Below, piece by piece: positions 2-6,542 of a stretch of 6,678 nt of DNA. The DNA is from Candidatus Hydrogenedentes bacterium CG07_land_8_20_14_0_80_42_17. GTDB lineage: Bacteria > UBA8481. Location of the stretch: NCBI GenBank assembly GCA_002780065.1, contig PEWQ01000157.1:9637-16314 (forward strand). The letters run 5' to 3'. Each line of letters opens with the position of its first letter. The first letter of the stretch is position 1. Made by a program: the position numbers and the translations under genes. A model generated the notes under the pieces. The model was not told the origin of the DNA and did not search any database. It saw only the letters and a program-made list of their open reading frames with translations.

Positions 2-1648
2 GAATTATCGGCTTGCCTTACGGCTATGACGCTGGTCGGCTCAACTCTTGATCTCAATGATGTCTTGAATCGAGCAATAAACTGCGCAAAGGAAGTCATG
101 AACGCCGAAGCGGCGTCAGTCATGCTTATCGACCCTAGCACTGGCGGGCTCTTTTTCAAACAAGCATCAGGCGCCGCATGCGACAAGATCAAAGAGGTTC
201 GAATTCCAAAAGGTCATGGCATAGCCGGATGGGTTGCGGAAAACGGAGAACCGGCTGTAGTCGAGGATGCCAGAAAAGATCCCAGATTTTTCCGAAACGC
301 AGACGACAAAACAGGGTTCATTACCAAATCAATTCTTGCAGTGCCTCTTAAAGTCCGAGACAGAATCATCGGAGTTGCGGAAGTCATAAATAAACAGGAC
401 GGAAATTTTTCAGAATCCGATCTGCCTCTTTTTTCTGCTTACGCTTCGCTTGCCGCAGTCGCAATCGAGAACGCTAAAATGCATCATCAGCTTCTGGAAC
501 AGGAACTCTTATCGAGAGAGCTGGATATTTCCCGACAAATTCAAGATGCCCTCCAGGGGCCTGAATACGCCTCTCTAGGGCTCACTAGATTTAATGCAGT
601 TTCTATTCCGGCTCGCAGTGTAGGCGGAGATTTTTACGATTGGGTCGAGCTCGGAGACGGCAGGGTTCTAATCACAATTGGAGATGTGAGCGGAAAAGGG
701 ATACCTGCCGCTTTGCTAATGTCCAATACAATTTCACGATTCAGAGCAGAAGCTGCGCGGCTCGTTGAACCTAATGAAATTCTTTCGATGCTCAATTCTG
801 TCCTCGCTAAAGAATCGCGCAGAGGGCTCTTCGTTACGCTCTTTACAATGCTGTTGGAGCCTGACGGTCATCTGCATTATTCCAACGCAGGGCATCAGAC
901 ACCTTTGTATCTATCAAAAAATGGCTATGTGGAACTTTCGAAAGCAGGTGGTCCTCCGCTCGGAATCGTTCCTGAATTCAAATACGAGCAGGCTTACACA
1001 ACTCTTTCCGAAGGCGATACCGTAGTAGTTTACACCGATGGTGTGACTGAAGCAGTGAATCCTAAAGGAGAATTCTACGGATTCGAACGCCTCAAGGAAA
1101 AAATTTCCGCACTGCAGAAAGAGGCTGAAACAATTTCCCAAAGAATTCGTGAAGATGTGGAAAATTTTGAGAGCGGTCGAGAGCGCACCGACGACTTAAC
1201 CGTTGTTGTCGTCCATCGAACTCATTCTGCTGAAACACTCGTAAAAAAATACGAACGGCTTTCACCCGATGATCTCGCCGAAAATCGAGCCACACTTGAT
1301 GCATATCTTATCGGGCTCGATGTTGAAGAAAAAGTCAGATCCAGCATTGTCCTCGCTGTTGATGAAGCTCTCACAAATGTTATTAGGCATGCGTATAAAG
1401 GCAATGGTGGCCCTGCTGAGGTCAAATACAGCGCAACTCGAAATCAACTCTTGATCGAGATTCGTGATTCCGGATGTGGTGATGTGCCTCAAATACCAAT
1501 TGAAGAGCGCACCGAAATCAAACCCGGAGGGCTAGGACTTGTCATACTGAAAAAAGTCATGGACGAGGTTTCTTTCAATTCAATTGAAAACGGCGGGTGT
1601 CTCCTCAAAATGAAGAAAACTCTTGAGCATAACCGTGAAACAAGTTAA
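2..1648 (+). CDS. GAF - PP2C (SpoIIE/RsbU-type) phosphatase - HATPase (RsbW-type) kinase fusion, 5' partial
   Basis: Cytoplasmic signalling protein that should both dephosphorylate and phosphorylate a STAS-domain partner. Residues are numbered from the first in-window ATG (base 26). A GAF sensor domain spans about 5-150. A helical linker (about 150-178) leads to the PP2C/SpoIIE domain (about 185-400), with metal-binding acidic motifs GGDFYDW (200-206), IGDVSGKG (218-225), YTDGVTEA (336-343) and RTDDLT (387-392). The C-terminal HATPase_c domain (about 408-532) has an intact N box (E447, N451, H455), G1 box (DSGCG, 481-485) and G2 box (GGLGL, 501-505). Both enzymes therefore look active. The frame stays open to the left edge with no stop; the residues before that ATG continue the usual N-terminal GAF helix, and the ATG lacks a Shine-Dalgarno sequence, so the true start is probably upstream. 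M. tuberculosis Rv1364c is a known protein that also fuses phosphatase and kinase. The STAS gene that follows is the obvious substrate (inference). Confidence 0.93.
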   Translation, partial: ELSACLTAMTLVGSTLDLNDVLNRAINCAKEVMNAEAASVMLIDPSTGGLFFKQASGAACDKIKEVRIPKGHGIAGWVAENGEPAVVEDARKDPRFFRNADDKTGFITKSILAVPLKVRDRIIGVAEVINKQDGNFSESDLPLFSAYASLAAVAIENAKMHHQLLEQELLSRELDISRQIQDALQGPEYASLGLTRFNAVSIPARSVGGDFYDWVELGDGRVLITIGDVSGKGIPAALLMSNTISRFRAEAARLVEPNEILSMLNSVLAKESRRGLFVTLFTMLLEPDGHLHYSNAGHQTPLYLSKNGYVELSKAGGPPLGIVPEFKYEQAYTTLSEGDTVVVYTDGVTEAVNPKGEFYGFERLKEKISALQKEAETISQRIREDVENFESGRERTDDLTVVVVHRTHSAETLVKKYERLSPDDLAENRATLDAYLIGLDVEEKVRSSIVLAVDEALTNVIRHAYKGNGGPAEVKYSATRNQLLIEIRDSGCGDVPQIPIEERTEIKPGGLGLVILKKVMDEVSFNSIENGGCLLKMKKTLEHNRETS

Positions 1649-1689
1649 TCTCTTTTTCAATTATCAAAGTAAAGCATAAAATAAAAGAT

Positions 1690-1694
1690 GGTGA
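1690..1694 (+). promoter_or_regulatory. Shine-Dalgarno of the STAS gene
   Basis: GGTGA lies 4 bases before the ATG at 1699 and matches the 3' half of the canonical AGGAGGTGA, so the short spacing is acceptable. An in-frame TGA at 1696-1698 directly precedes the ATG and the next in-frame ATG is codon 75, so the start at 1699 is effectively fixed. Confidence 0.5.
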
Positions 1695-1698
1695 GTGA

Positions 1699-2034
1699 AT
1701 GAATATAGAAACTAAATCTGAAGGTTCAATACATATTTTTATAGTTTCGGGCGACGTTGATTTAAAATCTTCTCCTCAGCTCAGACAAAAATTGCAGGAA
1801 GCATTGAAATCAAAACCTTCGGGTTTATTGATCGATCTCAAGGCATGTCCATACATTGATTCATCCGGCATCGCCACTCTTGTTGAAGCTCTGCAGGCGC
1901 TCCGATCTACAAACGGTAAAATGGCAATAGCAAGCCCTTCTCAACGAGTTAAAGACATTTTCGAAATTGCACATTTGGACGGAATTTTTCCGATGTTTCC
2001 ATCATACGAAACTGCGATTGCTTCATTGAAATGA
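1699..2034 (+). CDS. Single-domain STAS protein (anti-sigma factor antagonist / MlaB-like)
   Basis: A 111-residue protein made of one STAS domain, the usual length for SpoIIAA/RsbV proteins. The diagnostic loop is PYIDSSGIATL at 51-61; by family alignment the phospho-acceptor would be the second serine, S56. The preceding strand (LLIDLKAC, 43-50) and the N-terminal strands (IHIFIVSGDVD, 11-21) fit the fold. In classical partner switching the unphosphorylated form binds an RsbW-type kinase and releases its target; the phosphorylated form does not. The gene follows a phosphatase/kinase fusion by 50 bases, and its stop overlaps the mlaE start (ATGA, 2031-2034), suggesting translational coupling. 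E. coli MlaB is also a small cytoplasmic STAS protein, bound to MlaF. This product may therefore be the MlaB-equivalent subunit, a conventional anti-sigma antagonist, or both. The STAS assignment is firm; the partner is inferred. Confidence 0.92.
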   Translation: MNIETKSEGSIHIFIVSGDVDLKSSPQLRQKLQEALKSKPSGLLIDLKACPYIDSSGIATLVEALQALRSTNGKMAIASPSQRVKDIFEIAHLDGIFPMFPSYETAIASLK

Positions 2035-2855
2035 CAAATATCCGTCTGCCTTCTATTCTTGATCCGGTAGCAATCATAGGAAAAAAGTTTCTAGATATTA
2101 TCAAACTTATCGGAGGCGTCGGACTACTTTTATCCGACACTTTTTTCTGGGGAATAATTGCTCCTCTGACAGGAAAATTTCCCGACCGTAAATCAATCGA
2201 AAAACAGCTTATCGATGAAGGAGTAAATTCAGTTCCAATAGTCGGTCTGCTCTCTTTCACTGTCGGGCTCATTCTTGCAATGCAAACATCCTTCAATCTT
2301 GAAAAGCTCGGAGCCGCAACTTATTTTCCCGCGCTTGTTGCCGTTGCTACTGTGCGCGAACTCGGTCCGCTTATCTCTTCGATAATTATTTCCGGAAGAG
2401 TCGGAGCTTCAATCGCGGCTGAACTCGGCACCATGGTTGTTGCCGAAGAGATCGACGCTTTGCGGAGCATGTCTCTTCATCCTGTTCGGTTTCTGGTTAT
2501 TCCCAGAGTCATCGCACTATTTATCATGTTGCCGTGTCTCGCAATGCTTGCCAACGTTGCGTCCATTGCCGGAGCATTTGTATTCGGAGCGTCAACACTC
2601 GATATGTCGTTCGCAAGTTTTAAACAAATGGCTTTCGAATACATGACCGACACGGATGTTTGGACTGGGTTATTGAAGGCCGCAGTATTTTCATTTCTTA
2701 TTTCAGGAATTTCTTGTTACAACGGGTTGACAGTGACTGGCGGCGCAGAAGGAGTCGGCCGAGCCACAACAAGGTCGGTCGTATTCTCCATCTTCGCCAT
2801 AATTATCGCTGACGGAATATTCACAGCGGTATTCTACTATCTGTTGAAGCTATAA
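2031..2855 (+). CDS. mlaE: MlaE-family phospholipid ABC transporter permease
   Basis: Inner-membrane permease of the Mla/MCE lipid-transport system; 274 residues, close to E. coli MlaE (about 260). The family hallmark is the segment SGRVGASIAAELGTM (121-135) followed by VVAEEIDALRSM (136-147), preceded by TVRELGPLIS (107-116). Hydrophobic segments lie near 23-46, 67-85, 98-121, 154-187, 213-233 and 247-273; the first is likely the interfacial helix typical of MlaE. A second conserved glycine-rich stretch, TVTGGAEGVGRATTRSVV, lies at 234-251. It should dimerise and bind two MlaF ATPases, with a ring of MlaD on the periplasmic side. The ATG overlaps the STAS stop by 4 bases and has no strong Shine-Dalgarno sequence of its own, so translation probably depends on the upstream gene. 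The stop is 2 bases before mlaF. Confidence 0.95.
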   Translation: MTNIRLPSILDPVAIIGKKFLDIIKLIGGVGLLLSDTFFWGIIAPLTGKFPDRKSIEKQLIDEGVNSVPIVGLLSFTVGLILAMQTSFNLEKLGAATYFPALVAVATVRELGPLISSIIISGRVGASIAAELGTMVVAEEIDALRSMSLHPVRFLVIPRVIALFIMLPCLAMLANVASIAGAFVFGASTLDMSFASFKQMAFEYMTDTDVWTGLLKAAVFSFLISGISCYNGLTVTGGAEGVGRATTRSVVFSIFAIIIADGIFTAVFYYLLKL

Positions 2856-2857
2856 AA

Positions 2858-3706
2858 ATGATCATTCCCGAACTTGGACCTCCAAAAGAAAATATAATTG
2901 TAAAAGCCAACAATCTCGTCAAAGAATTCGAAGGCAGACGCGTGCTCGACAATGTTTCTTTCGAGGTAAAAAAAGGCGAGGTTCTAGTCATCATGGGCGG
3001 ATCCGGTTGCGGCAAATCAACAACTTTGCGAATTCTCATCGGTCTTGAAAAGGCTGATGAAGGTAACGTATGGCTCTTCAACGAGAATATAACCGCTTAC
3101 GATGATAAGCAGTTTGATGCGATTAGAAAACGATTCGGAGTTCTCTTCCAGTCCGGAGCTCTATTCAATTCAATGACCGTTGGTGAAAACGTATCTCTCC
3201 CTTTACACCAGCACACTGAGCTGGACGAAAACGTAATTCAAATTATTATGAGAATGAAACTGGAAATGGTCGGGCTTACCGGATTCGAACATCTCAAGCC
3301 TGCGGAGATTTCCGGAGGTATGAAAAAACGCGTTGGATTGGCTCGCGCAATAGCTTTGGACCCAGAGCTCGTCTTTTACGATGAACCCTCTGCCGGGCTC
3401 GATCCTGTTATGTCCGCTGTAATTGATGAACTAATACTCGACTTGAAGAAAAAAATGAATATAACATCTGTAGTGGTGACGCATCACATGGACTCTGCTT
3501 TCAAAATTGCAGACAAAATGGTGATGCTTTATCAAGGAAGAGTTCTGGCTTACGGAACACCGGATGAAATTCGCAACTCTGATGATCCGGTTGTTCAGCA
3601 ATTTATTTCCGGATCGGCTGACGGCCCGATTCCGTATCGTACTTCCAGAGACCTGTATCTCCAGACTCTTGCAGGAATCGCAGAGGAAAGGATTGACACG
3701 AGATGA
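2858..3706 (+). CDS. mlaF: MlaF-family phospholipid ABC transporter ATP-binding protein
   Basis: Cytoplasmic ATPase that powers the MlaE permease. All nucleotide-binding motifs are intact: Walker A GGSGCGKST (47-55, K53), Q-loop LFQSGALF (96-103, Q98), signature ISGGMKKRVGLARA (151-164), Walker B LVFYDEPSAGLDP (171-183, catalytic E176) and switch histidine in VVTHHM (206-211, H209). The variant signature SGGM and the sequences LFQSGALF and DEPSAGLDP are typical of the MlaF subfamily. The C-terminus (QQFISGSADGPIPY at 247-260, then a tail to 282) resembles the extended MlaF tail, which in E. coli lies at the MlaF dimer interface near the MlaB site. The gene sits 2 bases after mlaE and overlaps mlaD by 4 bases (ATGA). 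At 282 residues it is slightly longer than E. coli MlaF (about 269), partly through the N-terminal 12 residues. Confidence 0.96.
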   Translation: MIIPELGPPKENIIVKANNLVKEFEGRRVLDNVSFEVKKGEVLVIMGGSGCGKSTTLRILIGLEKADEGNVWLFNENITAYDDKQFDAIRKRFGVLFQSGALFNSMTVGENVSLPLHQHTELDENVIQIIMRMKLEMVGLTGFEHLKPAEISGGMKKRVGLARAIALDPELVFYDEPSAGLDPVMSAVIDELILDLKKKMNITSVVVTHHMDSAFKIADKMVMLYQGRVLAYGTPDEIRNSDDPVVQQFISGSADGPIPYRTSRDLYLQTLAGIAEERIDTR

Positions 3707-4704
3707 AACCGAGAGTGAACGAACTGATTGCAGGATTTTTTGTCATCATCATGTTCTTCGTATTTATTATTTTTCTTTCATGGGCAAGCGGCCGCATGGG
3801 TGAATGGATGAATAGACATGAAACCACAATGTATACATGGTTTCACAATACAGGAGGATTAAAGCCTCAGGTGCAAGTGACTTATCAGGGATACAAATTC
3901 GGAAGTGTCACCTCGATCGACTTTGATCCTAAAATGAAATTGATAAGAGTGACGATGACTGTTGACGCGGATTTTGCAAATGCAAATCTTCCTGATCATG
4001 CAGTTGCCATGATTACTACTGCTTCGCTTCTAGGTGACCCCTATCTTGAACTCACTTCGGATTTCAGAACTGTGGATCTGGATTTTCTAGTCAACGGGGA
4101 CTCTAGTGTAATTAAAAAGAAAAATGAAAATAATGAAGACGTCATAATCGTCGATGCAATCGATCCTGCCGGATGGGGAACCATTCAGGTTCAGGCTTCG
4201 AATCTTTTGCGCGACATTCAGTCGCAATTCGGGTCAATGTCCGATACCATCGGAAGCATACTTAGAAGTACTGACTCAATCATTTCCGATCCTCAATTGA
4301 AAGAAGACGTCAAGATAACGATGAATCGTGTAAGAGTTGCGTCAGAGCAGTTGCCTCAAACAATGTCAGAAGCTCGTTCCATGCTCACCTCCGCCAATTC
4401 TGCTACTAGCAGAGTCGATAGGCTTATAGCAAATTCTGAAGATACCGTCTCAAGCATTCTCAATAATACAGATGAGACCATGTTAAACACCAGAGCTCTG
4501 ACTTATACTCTTTCCGAAAGGCCTTCCAGACTCGTCTGGGATGACAAAGATAGGCAGAGAAGAATTGCCGAGGGCGACACAAGTGTAATTTTTGCGTCAT
4601 GGCGAAAACCTGTTTCCAGCTCCAGCTCAAATTCTTCCACCATTACAAATAGAAGACAAAACAGCCGAATGACTTGGGGAAATCCTTCGGCAATATCTAA
4701 TTAA
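3703..4704 (+). CDS. mlaD: MlaD-like MCE-domain protein, membrane anchored
   Basis: Lipid-binding component of the Mla system, anchored in the inner membrane with the bulk in the periplasm. An uncleaved N-terminal transmembrane helix spans about 9-28. One MCE domain (about 42-122) shows the family pattern: WFHNTGGLKPQVQVTYQGYK (46-65), then FGSVTSIDF (66-74) and ASLLGDPYLELTS (107-119). Residues about 165-272 are predicted helical and end in the ALTYTLSERPSRL motif (265-277), matching the L..RP..LI ending of many MCE proteins. The last 30 residues are Ser/Asn-rich (SSSSSNSSTIT, 305-315) and probably disordered. At 333 residues it is much longer than E. coli MlaD (183), as is common for MCE proteins outside Enterobacteria. 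It overlaps mlaF by 4 bases, and a good Shine-Dalgarno sequence (AAAGGA, 3687-3692) lies 10 bases upstream inside mlaF. No mlaC follows. Confidence 0.92.
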   Translation: MKPRVNELIAGFFVIIMFFVFIIFLSWASGRMGEWMNRHETTMYTWFHNTGGLKPQVQVTYQGYKFGSVTSIDFDPKMKLIRVTMTVDADFANANLPDHAVAMITTASLLGDPYLELTSDFRTVDLDFLVNGDSSVIKKKNENNEDVIIVDAIDPAGWGTIQVQASNLLRDIQSQFGSMSDTIGSILRSTDSIISDPQLKEDVKITMNRVRVASEQLPQTMSEARSMLTSANSATSRVDRLIANSEDTVSSILNNTDETMLNTRALTYTLSERPSRLVWDDKDRQRRIAEGDTSVIFASWRKPVSSSSSNSSTITNRRQNSRMTWGNPSAISN

Positions 4705-4717: not shown

Positions 4718-6166
4718 ATGTTAAATATAAACGATAAAATCAGGCGAAAAGCAATTAAGCGTTGCAAAGAAAAGGGCATTGTAATTCCGACATTCAAAGA
4801 GCAAAAAAATCCCGAACTGATTTCCGCTGATGTTAAGAAAAGGTTAAAAAATGTCGGACTATGGGACGTCGATCCGCTGAATCTCTATCGCATCACTTGG
4901 AAGAATGAGCCCGTTGAAAAGGGTGGAGAATTTGGAAAGGTTAATTATCTTGAATTTCCGTCCGAGCTTACAGGCGTCAAAGCCAGAATAGTCGGGCTTG
5001 TCGGAAAATATTTTCCAACCGGTGCGCATAAAGTCGGCGCCGCATTCGGATGTTTAGTTCCAAGACTTGTCACCGGTGAATTCGATCCTACAACACAAAA
5101 AGCTGTATGGCCTTCTACCGGCAACTACTGTCGCGGAGGCGCATTCGATTCTGCGCTGTTAGGATGCACTGCAGTTGCAATTTTGCCTGAAGAGATGAGT
5201 CGTGAGCGTTTCGACTGGTTGCGAGAGATCGGAGCCGAAGTCATTGCTACTCCAGGATGCGAATCGAATGTAAAAGAGATTTACGACAAGTGCTGGGATA
5301 TTCGAAAAAATCGTCCTGACTGCGTCATCTTCAATCAGTTTGACGAGTTTGGAAATCATCTCTGGCATTACGAAATCACAGCTTCTGCAATTGAAGAGGT
5401 TTTTGATTCAATAAAGAATTCAAAATCTTCTCTCGCCGCTTATTTAAGTGCAACAGGTTCTGCCGGAACAATTGGAGCCGGCGACAGATTGAAAGAGATT
5501 TATCCAAATATGAAGATCGGAGCGTCTGAGGCTCTGCAATGCCCCACTCTTCTTCTGAATGGATTCGGCGGACATCGAATTGAAGGAATCGGCGACAAAC
5601 ACGTTCCATGGATACACAACACCAGAAATACAGATATGGTTGTCGCTATCGATGATGAAGCCTGCATGAGTATTCTACGCCTCTTTAACGAGCCGCAAGG
5701 AATCGAATATCTTTCTGCTCAAAATATTAACAATAATCTCATTAAAAAATTGCCGCTTCTGGGAATTTCCAGTATCTCCAATCTTATATCTTCTATCAAA
5801 ACCGCAAAATATTATGAGCTCGGAAAAGACGATGTTATTTTTACCATTCTTACAGATTCTGCCGCGATGTATTCTTCAAGACTCGAAGAATTAAAAGAAG
5901 CAGATGGTAATTACACCAAAGAAGACGCTTCAAAACATCTGGCGCGATACATTCATGGAGCTGGAATAGATAACATGAGAGAGCTCTCTTATTATGATCG
6001 AAAGGCTTTGCACAACCTAAAGTATTACACATGGGTTGAACAGCAAGGCAAGTCCACAGAAGATTTGAATCGTCTATGGGATCCCGAATTCTGGGCGGAA
6101 ATTCATACTCAAATTCCCGAGTGGGATTCGGCCATCGAGAGCTTTAATTCCGAGGTTGTAAAATAA
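4718..6166 (+). CDS. PLP-dependent fold-type II enzyme (tryptophan synthase beta/cysteine synthase superfamily), substrate unknown
   Basis: A 482-residue soluble enzyme of the PALP superfamily. The likely Schiff-base lysine is K105 in PTGAHKVGAAFG (100-111). The substrate-carboxylate loop appears as STGNYCRGGA (133-142), an unusual version of the SSGN/TSGN loop. The phosphate-binding loop is SATGSAGTIGAG (244-255). TDSAAMYSSRL (379-389) probably supplies the serine facing the pyridine nitrogen. I recognise the type as the group often annotated 'pyridoxal-5-phosphate-dependent protein subunit beta', conserved in varied bacteria; I know of no established reaction. It is longer than cysteine synthase (about 310) because of an N-terminal extension of about 80 residues (GLWDVDPLNLYRITWKNEP, 47-65) and about 95 C-terminal residues (NLKYYTWVEQQGK, 433-445). 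It starts 13 bases after mlaD, so it is probably in the same transcript, but no functional link to lipid transport is evident. Cysteine synthase or threonine synthase names would be over-specific. Confidence 0.88.
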   Translation: MLNINDKIRRKAIKRCKEKGIVIPTFKEQKNPELISADVKKRLKNVGLWDVDPLNLYRITWKNEPVEKGGEFGKVNYLEFPSELTGVKARIVGLVGKYFPTGAHKVGAAFGCLVPRLVTGEFDPTTQKAVWPSTGNYCRGGAFDSALLGCTAVAILPEEMSRERFDWLREIGAEVIATPGCESNVKEIYDKCWDIRKNRPDCVIFNQFDEFGNHLWHYEITASAIEEVFDSIKNSKSSLAAYLSATGSAGTIGAGDRLKEIYPNMKIGASEALQCPTLLLNGFGGHRIEGIGDKHVPWIHNTRNTDMVVAIDDEACMSILRLFNEPQGIEYLSAQNINNNLIKKLPLLGISSISNLISSIKTAKYYELGKDDVIFTILTDSAAMYSSRLEELKEADGNYTKEDASKHLARYIHGAGIDNMRELSYYDRKALHNLKYYTWVEQQGKSTEDLNRLWDPEFWAEIHTQIPEWDSAIESFNSEVVK

Positions 6167-6176: not shown

Positions 6177-6542
6177 GTGAAACAATCGGATGATGAAAAT
6201 TTCGATGATATAAATCGAAGAGATTCGGATCGCCGCGGCGGCCTTAAACCTGCATGGGCTATTATCAGGCTTGATAATAATGTTGAAGTTCCTTGCTGGA
6301 TCATTAACGAATCGAGAAGTGGAATCGGTTTAGAAACCCGAAAGCAAATGAAGCCATTTCCATTGGACCGCGGCGGAACTTATTGGATGCAGATTAAACC
6401 AAGTAATGCCAAAATTTCTTCTTGGGTAGCAGGAACAATAAAACATATCCGTGAGAAGGGAGCCGGCAGTGGAATTTACAGAGTAGGAGTAAAAATAACT
6501 ACAGTTCCTCCTACTAGTCTGGGAAATATTCCAAATATTTAA
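6177..6542 (+). CDS. Small PilZ-domain protein, probable c-di-GMP binder
   Basis: A 121-residue protein starting at GTG, only 10 bases after the PLP enzyme stop. It carries the two PilZ signatures: an arginine cluster NRRDSDRR (13-20), which provides RxxxR (R15 and R19), and NESRSG (44-49), which fits (D/N)xSxxG. Between them is a strand-like stretch, WAIIRLDNN (27-35), and the domain ends with IYRVGVKI (100-107), a typical last PilZ strand. No other domain is visible, so it would act as a stand-alone c-di-GMP receptor in the cytoplasm, binding the dinucleotide and then a partner protein. Its target cannot be read from the sequence. If co-transcribed with the genes upstream it could connect c-di-GMP level to envelope lipid transport or to the PLP enzyme, but that is inference. 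The motif spacing is acceptable, though the overall domain is divergent. Confidence 0.78.
   Translation: MKQSDDENFDDINRRDSDRRGGLKPAWAIIRLDNNVEVPCWIINESRSGIGLETRKQMKPFPLDRGGTYWMQIKPSNAKISSWVAGTIKHIREKGAGSGIYRVGVKITTVPPTSLGNIPNI

Follow-up and report, generated by a model that had tools for sequence, protein, structure and literature searches.

The 6,678-nucleotide stretch of DNA analysed here (the window) carries an operon for an Mla-type MCE phospholipid transporter (MlaE-MlaF-MlaD), and, judging from sequence comparison, the STAS protein of this operon most likely has two roles: it would bind MlaF in the manner of E. coli MlaB, and the kinase and phosphatase encoded next to it would act on it. 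The initial annotation had suggested that a transporter, and not a sigma factor, would be the output of this partner switch, and comparative evidence supports such an output well: the gene arrangement is conserved in 26 loci, an MlaF extension that in E. coli clamps MlaB occurs together with it, and no SigB/F/G-type sigma factor was found above the cut-off in the cassette genomes searched. Genomes can speak for the order of the genes, its conservation, the catalytic and acceptor residues, the co-occurrence of the MlaF clamp and the fact that no sigma partner turned up in the genes and families searched; the complete model, in which STAS docks on MlaF and the kinase and phosphatase toggle transport, is in our opinion probable, and there is no biochemistry behind it. 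If true, it would place a lipid-transporting ABC complex under post-translational control by a partner switch, and it is a candidate answer to how envelope lipid pumps are switched on and off, given that the control of MlaB activity was called open.

Genes of the operon

The source MAG is 2.39 Mb in size and 87% complete. All five genes that had been proposed, GAF-PP2C-HATPase, STAS, mlaE, mlaF and mlaD, were found in that order (Table 1), the first being truncated at its 5′ end by a scaffold gap (N-run) that lies immediately beyond the window. An MlaFED(B)/MCE transporter is expected to have its permease (MlaE), ATPase (MlaF) and MCE protein encoded in one operon, as is the case here. The overlap of STAS and mlaE by ATGA was likewise confirmed (2031-2034), and the junction of mlaF and mlaD is of the same kind. 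The DSSG motif of the STAS protein and the catalytic motifs of phosphatase and kinase are intact, as had been claimed: the former enzyme has GGDFYD, GDVSGKG, TDGVTE and DDLTV, fulfilling what a PP2C metal site requires, and the latter has EALTN, DSG and PGGLG. One detail needs correction, as S56 had been named as the phosphorylation site; this is off by one, since alignment with the solved RsbV and TM1442 gives Ser55 (codon 1861-1863), the first Ser after Asp, as the predicted phospho-acceptor.

Table 1. Features of the operon and their positions in the window
Feature	Position (nt)	Strand	Basis or remark
GAF-PP2C(SpoIIE)-HATPase_c_2	2..1648	+	domain matches, motifs; 548 aa in window, N-terminus cut
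GAF domain	50-466	+	part of GAF-PP2C-HATPase gene
PP2C phosphatase domain	656-1219	+	part of GAF-PP2C-HATPase gene
SpoIIAB/RsbW-type kinase domain	1262-1618	+	part of GAF-PP2C-HATPase gene
STAS protein, 111 aa, DSSG	1699..2034	+	alignment, profile, AlphaFold2 model
MlaE permease	2031..2855	+	overlaps STAS by ATGA
MlaF ATPase	2858..3706	+	C-terminal extension at about nt 3614-3703
MlaD / MCE protein, 333 aa	3703..4704	+	domain matches

Recurrence of the kinase-STAS-Mla cassette

In a first sample of 60 genomes, the positions of MlaE, PP2C and HATPase were compared and the MlaE neighbourhoods were domain-mapped with profiles built here. STAS lies directly upstream of seven of the 75 MlaE genes, and in six of these a HATPase gene lies directly upstream of STAS, the seventh being cut by a contig end; this arrangement exceeds chance by far. 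A further STAS-mlaE case was seen in genome G006 (L115 6725-7544), where mlaE is split into two reading frames by a frameshift or an assembly error.

STAS is found directly upstream of mlaE in eight of the 60 genomes, and a profile made from those eight STAS proteins was used to search 386 genomes, with most families represented by one or two, and the neighbourhoods of the matches were then read. The order STAS-MlaE-MlaF was present in 27 of these genomes (21 families) and in an Omnitrophota MAG (L038), 28 loci altogether, and the full order HATPase-STAS-MlaE-MlaF in 25 of them and in L038, 26 loci. The kinase gene is thus directly before STAS at all but two of the 28, the exceptions being G058, where the contig ends, and G236, where no kinase was found in about 13 kb upstream despite the presence of STAS, DSSG and the MlaF clamp. 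Loss of the adjacency of kinase, STAS and mlaE in relatives would have told against the proposal, and the adjacency is conserved in these 26 loci. All but one of the cassette genomes lie outside the phylum of the window. In one class, nine of 18 genomes have the cassette and none of the seven from one genus does, which indicates that the whole set comes and goes together; eight more members from one class were found to have the full order, without exception. Elsewhere, PP2C-HATPase-STAS modules stand without Mla genes nearby (L169, L174 and L183), the same kit of switch proteins serving different outputs there.

Residues for ATP binding and catalysis are retained in all 26 cassette kinases, which have the features expected of the RsbW type (N-box Glu/Asn, DxG and lid), with the N-box Glu and Asn kept in 26/26 and the PGGLG lid in 25/26. 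The PP2C gene is fused to the kinase in nine loci, adjoining in eight, downstream or divergent in three and not found nearby in six. The sensors also differ (GAF, FHA-GAF and the extracytoplasmic domain CHASE2), and this variety fits one common switch with interchangeable inputs. In two cassettes, a CHASE2-PP2C gene follows the MCE gene (L038 4008-5879 and L159 1296-3212), and the phosphatase there may therefore sense the periplasm. The GAF domain of the window is similar to those of cyclic-nucleotide phosphodiesterases and retains part of an NKxnFx3DE-like motif (INKQDGNFSESDL).

The placement of the phosphatase bears on the direction of information flow. Partner switches are symmetrical, and STAS is expected, by inference from the binding faces of SpoIIAA and MlaB, to be shared by MlaF and the kinase, so that the transporter could in principle be the sensor: MlaF would bind or release STAS depending on its state of transport, and free STAS would titrate the kinase, which would control another target. 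However, the kinase is fused to or adjoins a sensor-PP2C gene in 17 of the 26 loci, implying that input comes from the sensor side, and no second target is linked to the cassette; we therefore give this reversed scheme very little credence.

The MlaF extension and predicted docking of STAS

In the E. coli MlaFB structure, MlaB is clamped by two copies of MlaF, one contributing its helical subdomain and the other its C-terminal extension, with Tyr261, Leu265 and Leu266 of the extension in a groove beside MlaB (PMC7367683). The window MlaF has equivalents of the first two in Tyr267 (3656-3658) and Leu271 and meets our definition of the extension, which was scored as Y, F or L at 267 together with L, M, I or V at 271. 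This extension occurs in 28/28 cassette MlaFs versus 1/53 non-cassette MlaFs, so that docking of STAS on MlaF in the manner of MlaB is most likely; we regard the co-occurrence as independent evidence for the predicted binding of cassette STAS to MlaF. The extension is missing from the second MlaF of the window genome, a paralogue on contig 9. Loci with a stand-alone MlaB-like STAS have it too, namely E. coli and the E. coli-type operons of G283 (clear) and G146 (weaker), but it was not seen in loci whose STAS overlaps MlaE or is fused to it (L085, L102, L104, L227 and L228).

The cassette MlaE/F proteins form a single clade (support 100), and the 28 cases are consequently not 28 independent events. 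One nested group in this clade has lost both kinase and extension. A phylogenetic independent-pairs (sign) test of cassette against extension found only two label changes, few enough evolutionary events to put significance out of reach. Mirror-tree distances of STAS and MlaF are saturated and uncorrelated, while those of STAS and HATPase, and of STAS and MlaE, correlate. In L085, L102 and L104, which branch inside the cassette clade, MlaE is fused to or overlapped by STAS or a stretch resembling it, and both the kinase and the MlaF extension are lacking. Such STAS-MlaE fusion permeases (PF13466-PF02405) resemble the window operon in tying STAS to MlaE, but differ from it in that they come without a kinase or the extension and have a variable acceptor residue.

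The STAS protein and its predicted acceptor residue

The AlphaFold2 model of the window STAS protein (pLDDT 94) has SpoIIAA from the SpoIIAB complex as its best structural match (Z 20.7, 1.1 Å over 111 residues), and the predicted structure keeps the C-terminal helix that is missing from MlaB. Helix 55-70 begins at Ser55, as is expected of a phosphorylatable Ser that follows Asp at a helix start. We take this residue to be the counterpart of SpoIIAA S58, RsbV S56 and MlaB T52, with which it aligns. DSS is present in all 28 MlaE-linked STAS proteins, followed by G in 26 and A in two. Ser is also kept in some kinase-less STAS-MlaE fusions (L208 and L217), and alone it is thus not diagnostic; the notion that loss of the kinase always entails loss of Ser was rejected owing to the same two fusions.

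It could still be argued that STAS is a purely structural subunit that stabilises MlaF, with the kinase and phosphatase acting on other STAS proteins, given that E. coli MlaB works without a known kinase and that the window genome has five further STAS-domain matches. Such an explanation has to contend with a kinase gene directly before STAS in 26 loci and with the invariance of DSS in 28 STAS proteins, and it is the one to which we attach the least belief.

Sigma factors and other Mla components

The STAS protein is closest in structure to SpoIIAA and RsbV, and the kinase resembles SpoIIAB and RsbW; hence an ordinary anti-sigma/anti-anti-sigma module, in which the HATPase protein sequesters a sigma factor, with the Mla genes as mere neighbours or as part of its regulon, has to be weighed. 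A sigma or anti-sigma gene immediately upstream and pairing with STAS had been named as a possible refutation of the switch. No SigB/F/G-type sigma factor (TIGR02980) came above the cut-off in the eight genomes with a cassette from the initial set of 60, other families not being excluded, while a true sigma-RsbW-RsbV arrangement, with sigma, HATPase and STAS together, was recovered in G016 as a positive control. The genes checked beside the cassettes (fmt, rpe and polA) include no sigma gene, and an anti-sigma module would leave the co-occurrence of STAS and the MlaF clamp unexplained. We therefore consider such a module highly improbable, and a sigma factor as output was rejected on the TIGR02980 result in those eight genomes.

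A separate mlaB elsewhere in the genome would also have weakened the case, and no match to the canonical MlaB model was found in the window genome (87% complete). The window STAS itself scores 24 bits with this model (NF033618), short of the curated cut-off of 90 bits, which was passed by no sampled genome. The E. coli-type MlaB model misses most cassette STAS proteins; a phylogenomic survey with such a model called MlaB sparse (PMC10665443). MlaC (PF05494) and MlaA (PF04333) were not found in the 87% complete window genome either, which sets it apart from the canonical Mla pathway.

A model for the switch and its relation to known systems

In the model that we favour, unphosphorylated STAS would sit on MlaF as E. 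coli MlaB does, contacting the helical subdomain of one copy and the C-terminal extension of its partner, and would keep the ATPase in the active complex. The HATPase domain would phosphorylate Ser55, part of the docking face, and phosphorylated STAS would be unable to bind MlaF, causing transport to fall, until the PP2C domain, under the control of the GAF sensor, removed the phosphate and restored docking. That STAS is phosphorylated, that this turns transport off and that the GAF domain provides the input are all inferred. The sign of the switch is likewise an inference, by analogy with E. coli MlaB, in which Thr52 is at the centre of the MlaFB interface and T52E cuts MlaF binding (PMC7367683). 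The T52A variant leaves assembly intact and kills ATPase activity (PMC5016091), a warning that a simple dock/undock scheme accommodates badly.

The window operon shares with E. coli MlaFEDB an MlaE, an MlaF with an MlaB-clamping extension, an MCE protein and one STAS protein. In contrast to the mlaFEDCB order of E. coli, with its minimal MlaB carrying DTGG and no kinase or phosphatase gene, the window STAS gene lies before mlaE and is accompanied by both enzymes, and its product resembles SpoIIAA and carries DSSG. The RsbU/RsbW/RsbV and SpoIIE/SpoIIAB/SpoIIAA systems likewise consist of a PP2C phosphatase, a HATPase kinase and a STAS protein with DSSG, all with intact motifs, but in the window an ABC lipid transporter takes the place of the sigma factor. 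In their domain layouts, SypE of Vibrio fischeri, whose STAS partner is SypA, and Rv1364c of M. tuberculosis resemble the window protein in combining kinase and PP2C in one polypeptide that acts on a STAS domain; the Rv1364c structure (3ke6) was among the matches. Their outputs are biofilm control (the SypA/SypE partner switch, PMC10120452) and sigma regulation, and not a transporter.

Phosphorylation of MlaB was hypothesised in 2016 (PMC5016091) and discussed as open in 2020 (PMC7367683), both times without a kinase. We found no paper in the open-licence literature that joins partner switching or RsbW with MlaE, and the titles and abstracts of later MlaB papers give no kinase. Since kinase, phosphatase, sensor and substrate all lie in the transporter's own operon, the idea of MlaB phosphorylation becomes testable with a few purified proteins. 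If the model is true, it would go some way towards accounting for why E. coli has an MlaF extension and a phosphorylatable residue. It is tempting, if rather doubtful, to go further and regard phospho-gating by a dedicated STAS kinase and phosphatase as an old and widespread form of MCE control, of which E. coli MlaB would be a descendant without a kinase, having Thr52 and this same MlaF clamp.

Neighbouring genes

Closely after mlaD, the window encodes a cysteine synthase/CBS-family PLP enzyme (4718-6166), followed by a PilZ protein (6177-6542). Upstream, an N-gap separates the window from L007 602-9251 (- strand), which carries Type III-A CRISPR effector genes (Csx1, Csm5, Csm4, Csm3 and Cas10) beside an RtcR/PspF2-type CARF-sigma54-AAA-HTH gene, the product of which is possibly a transcription activator controlled by cyclic oligoadenylate.
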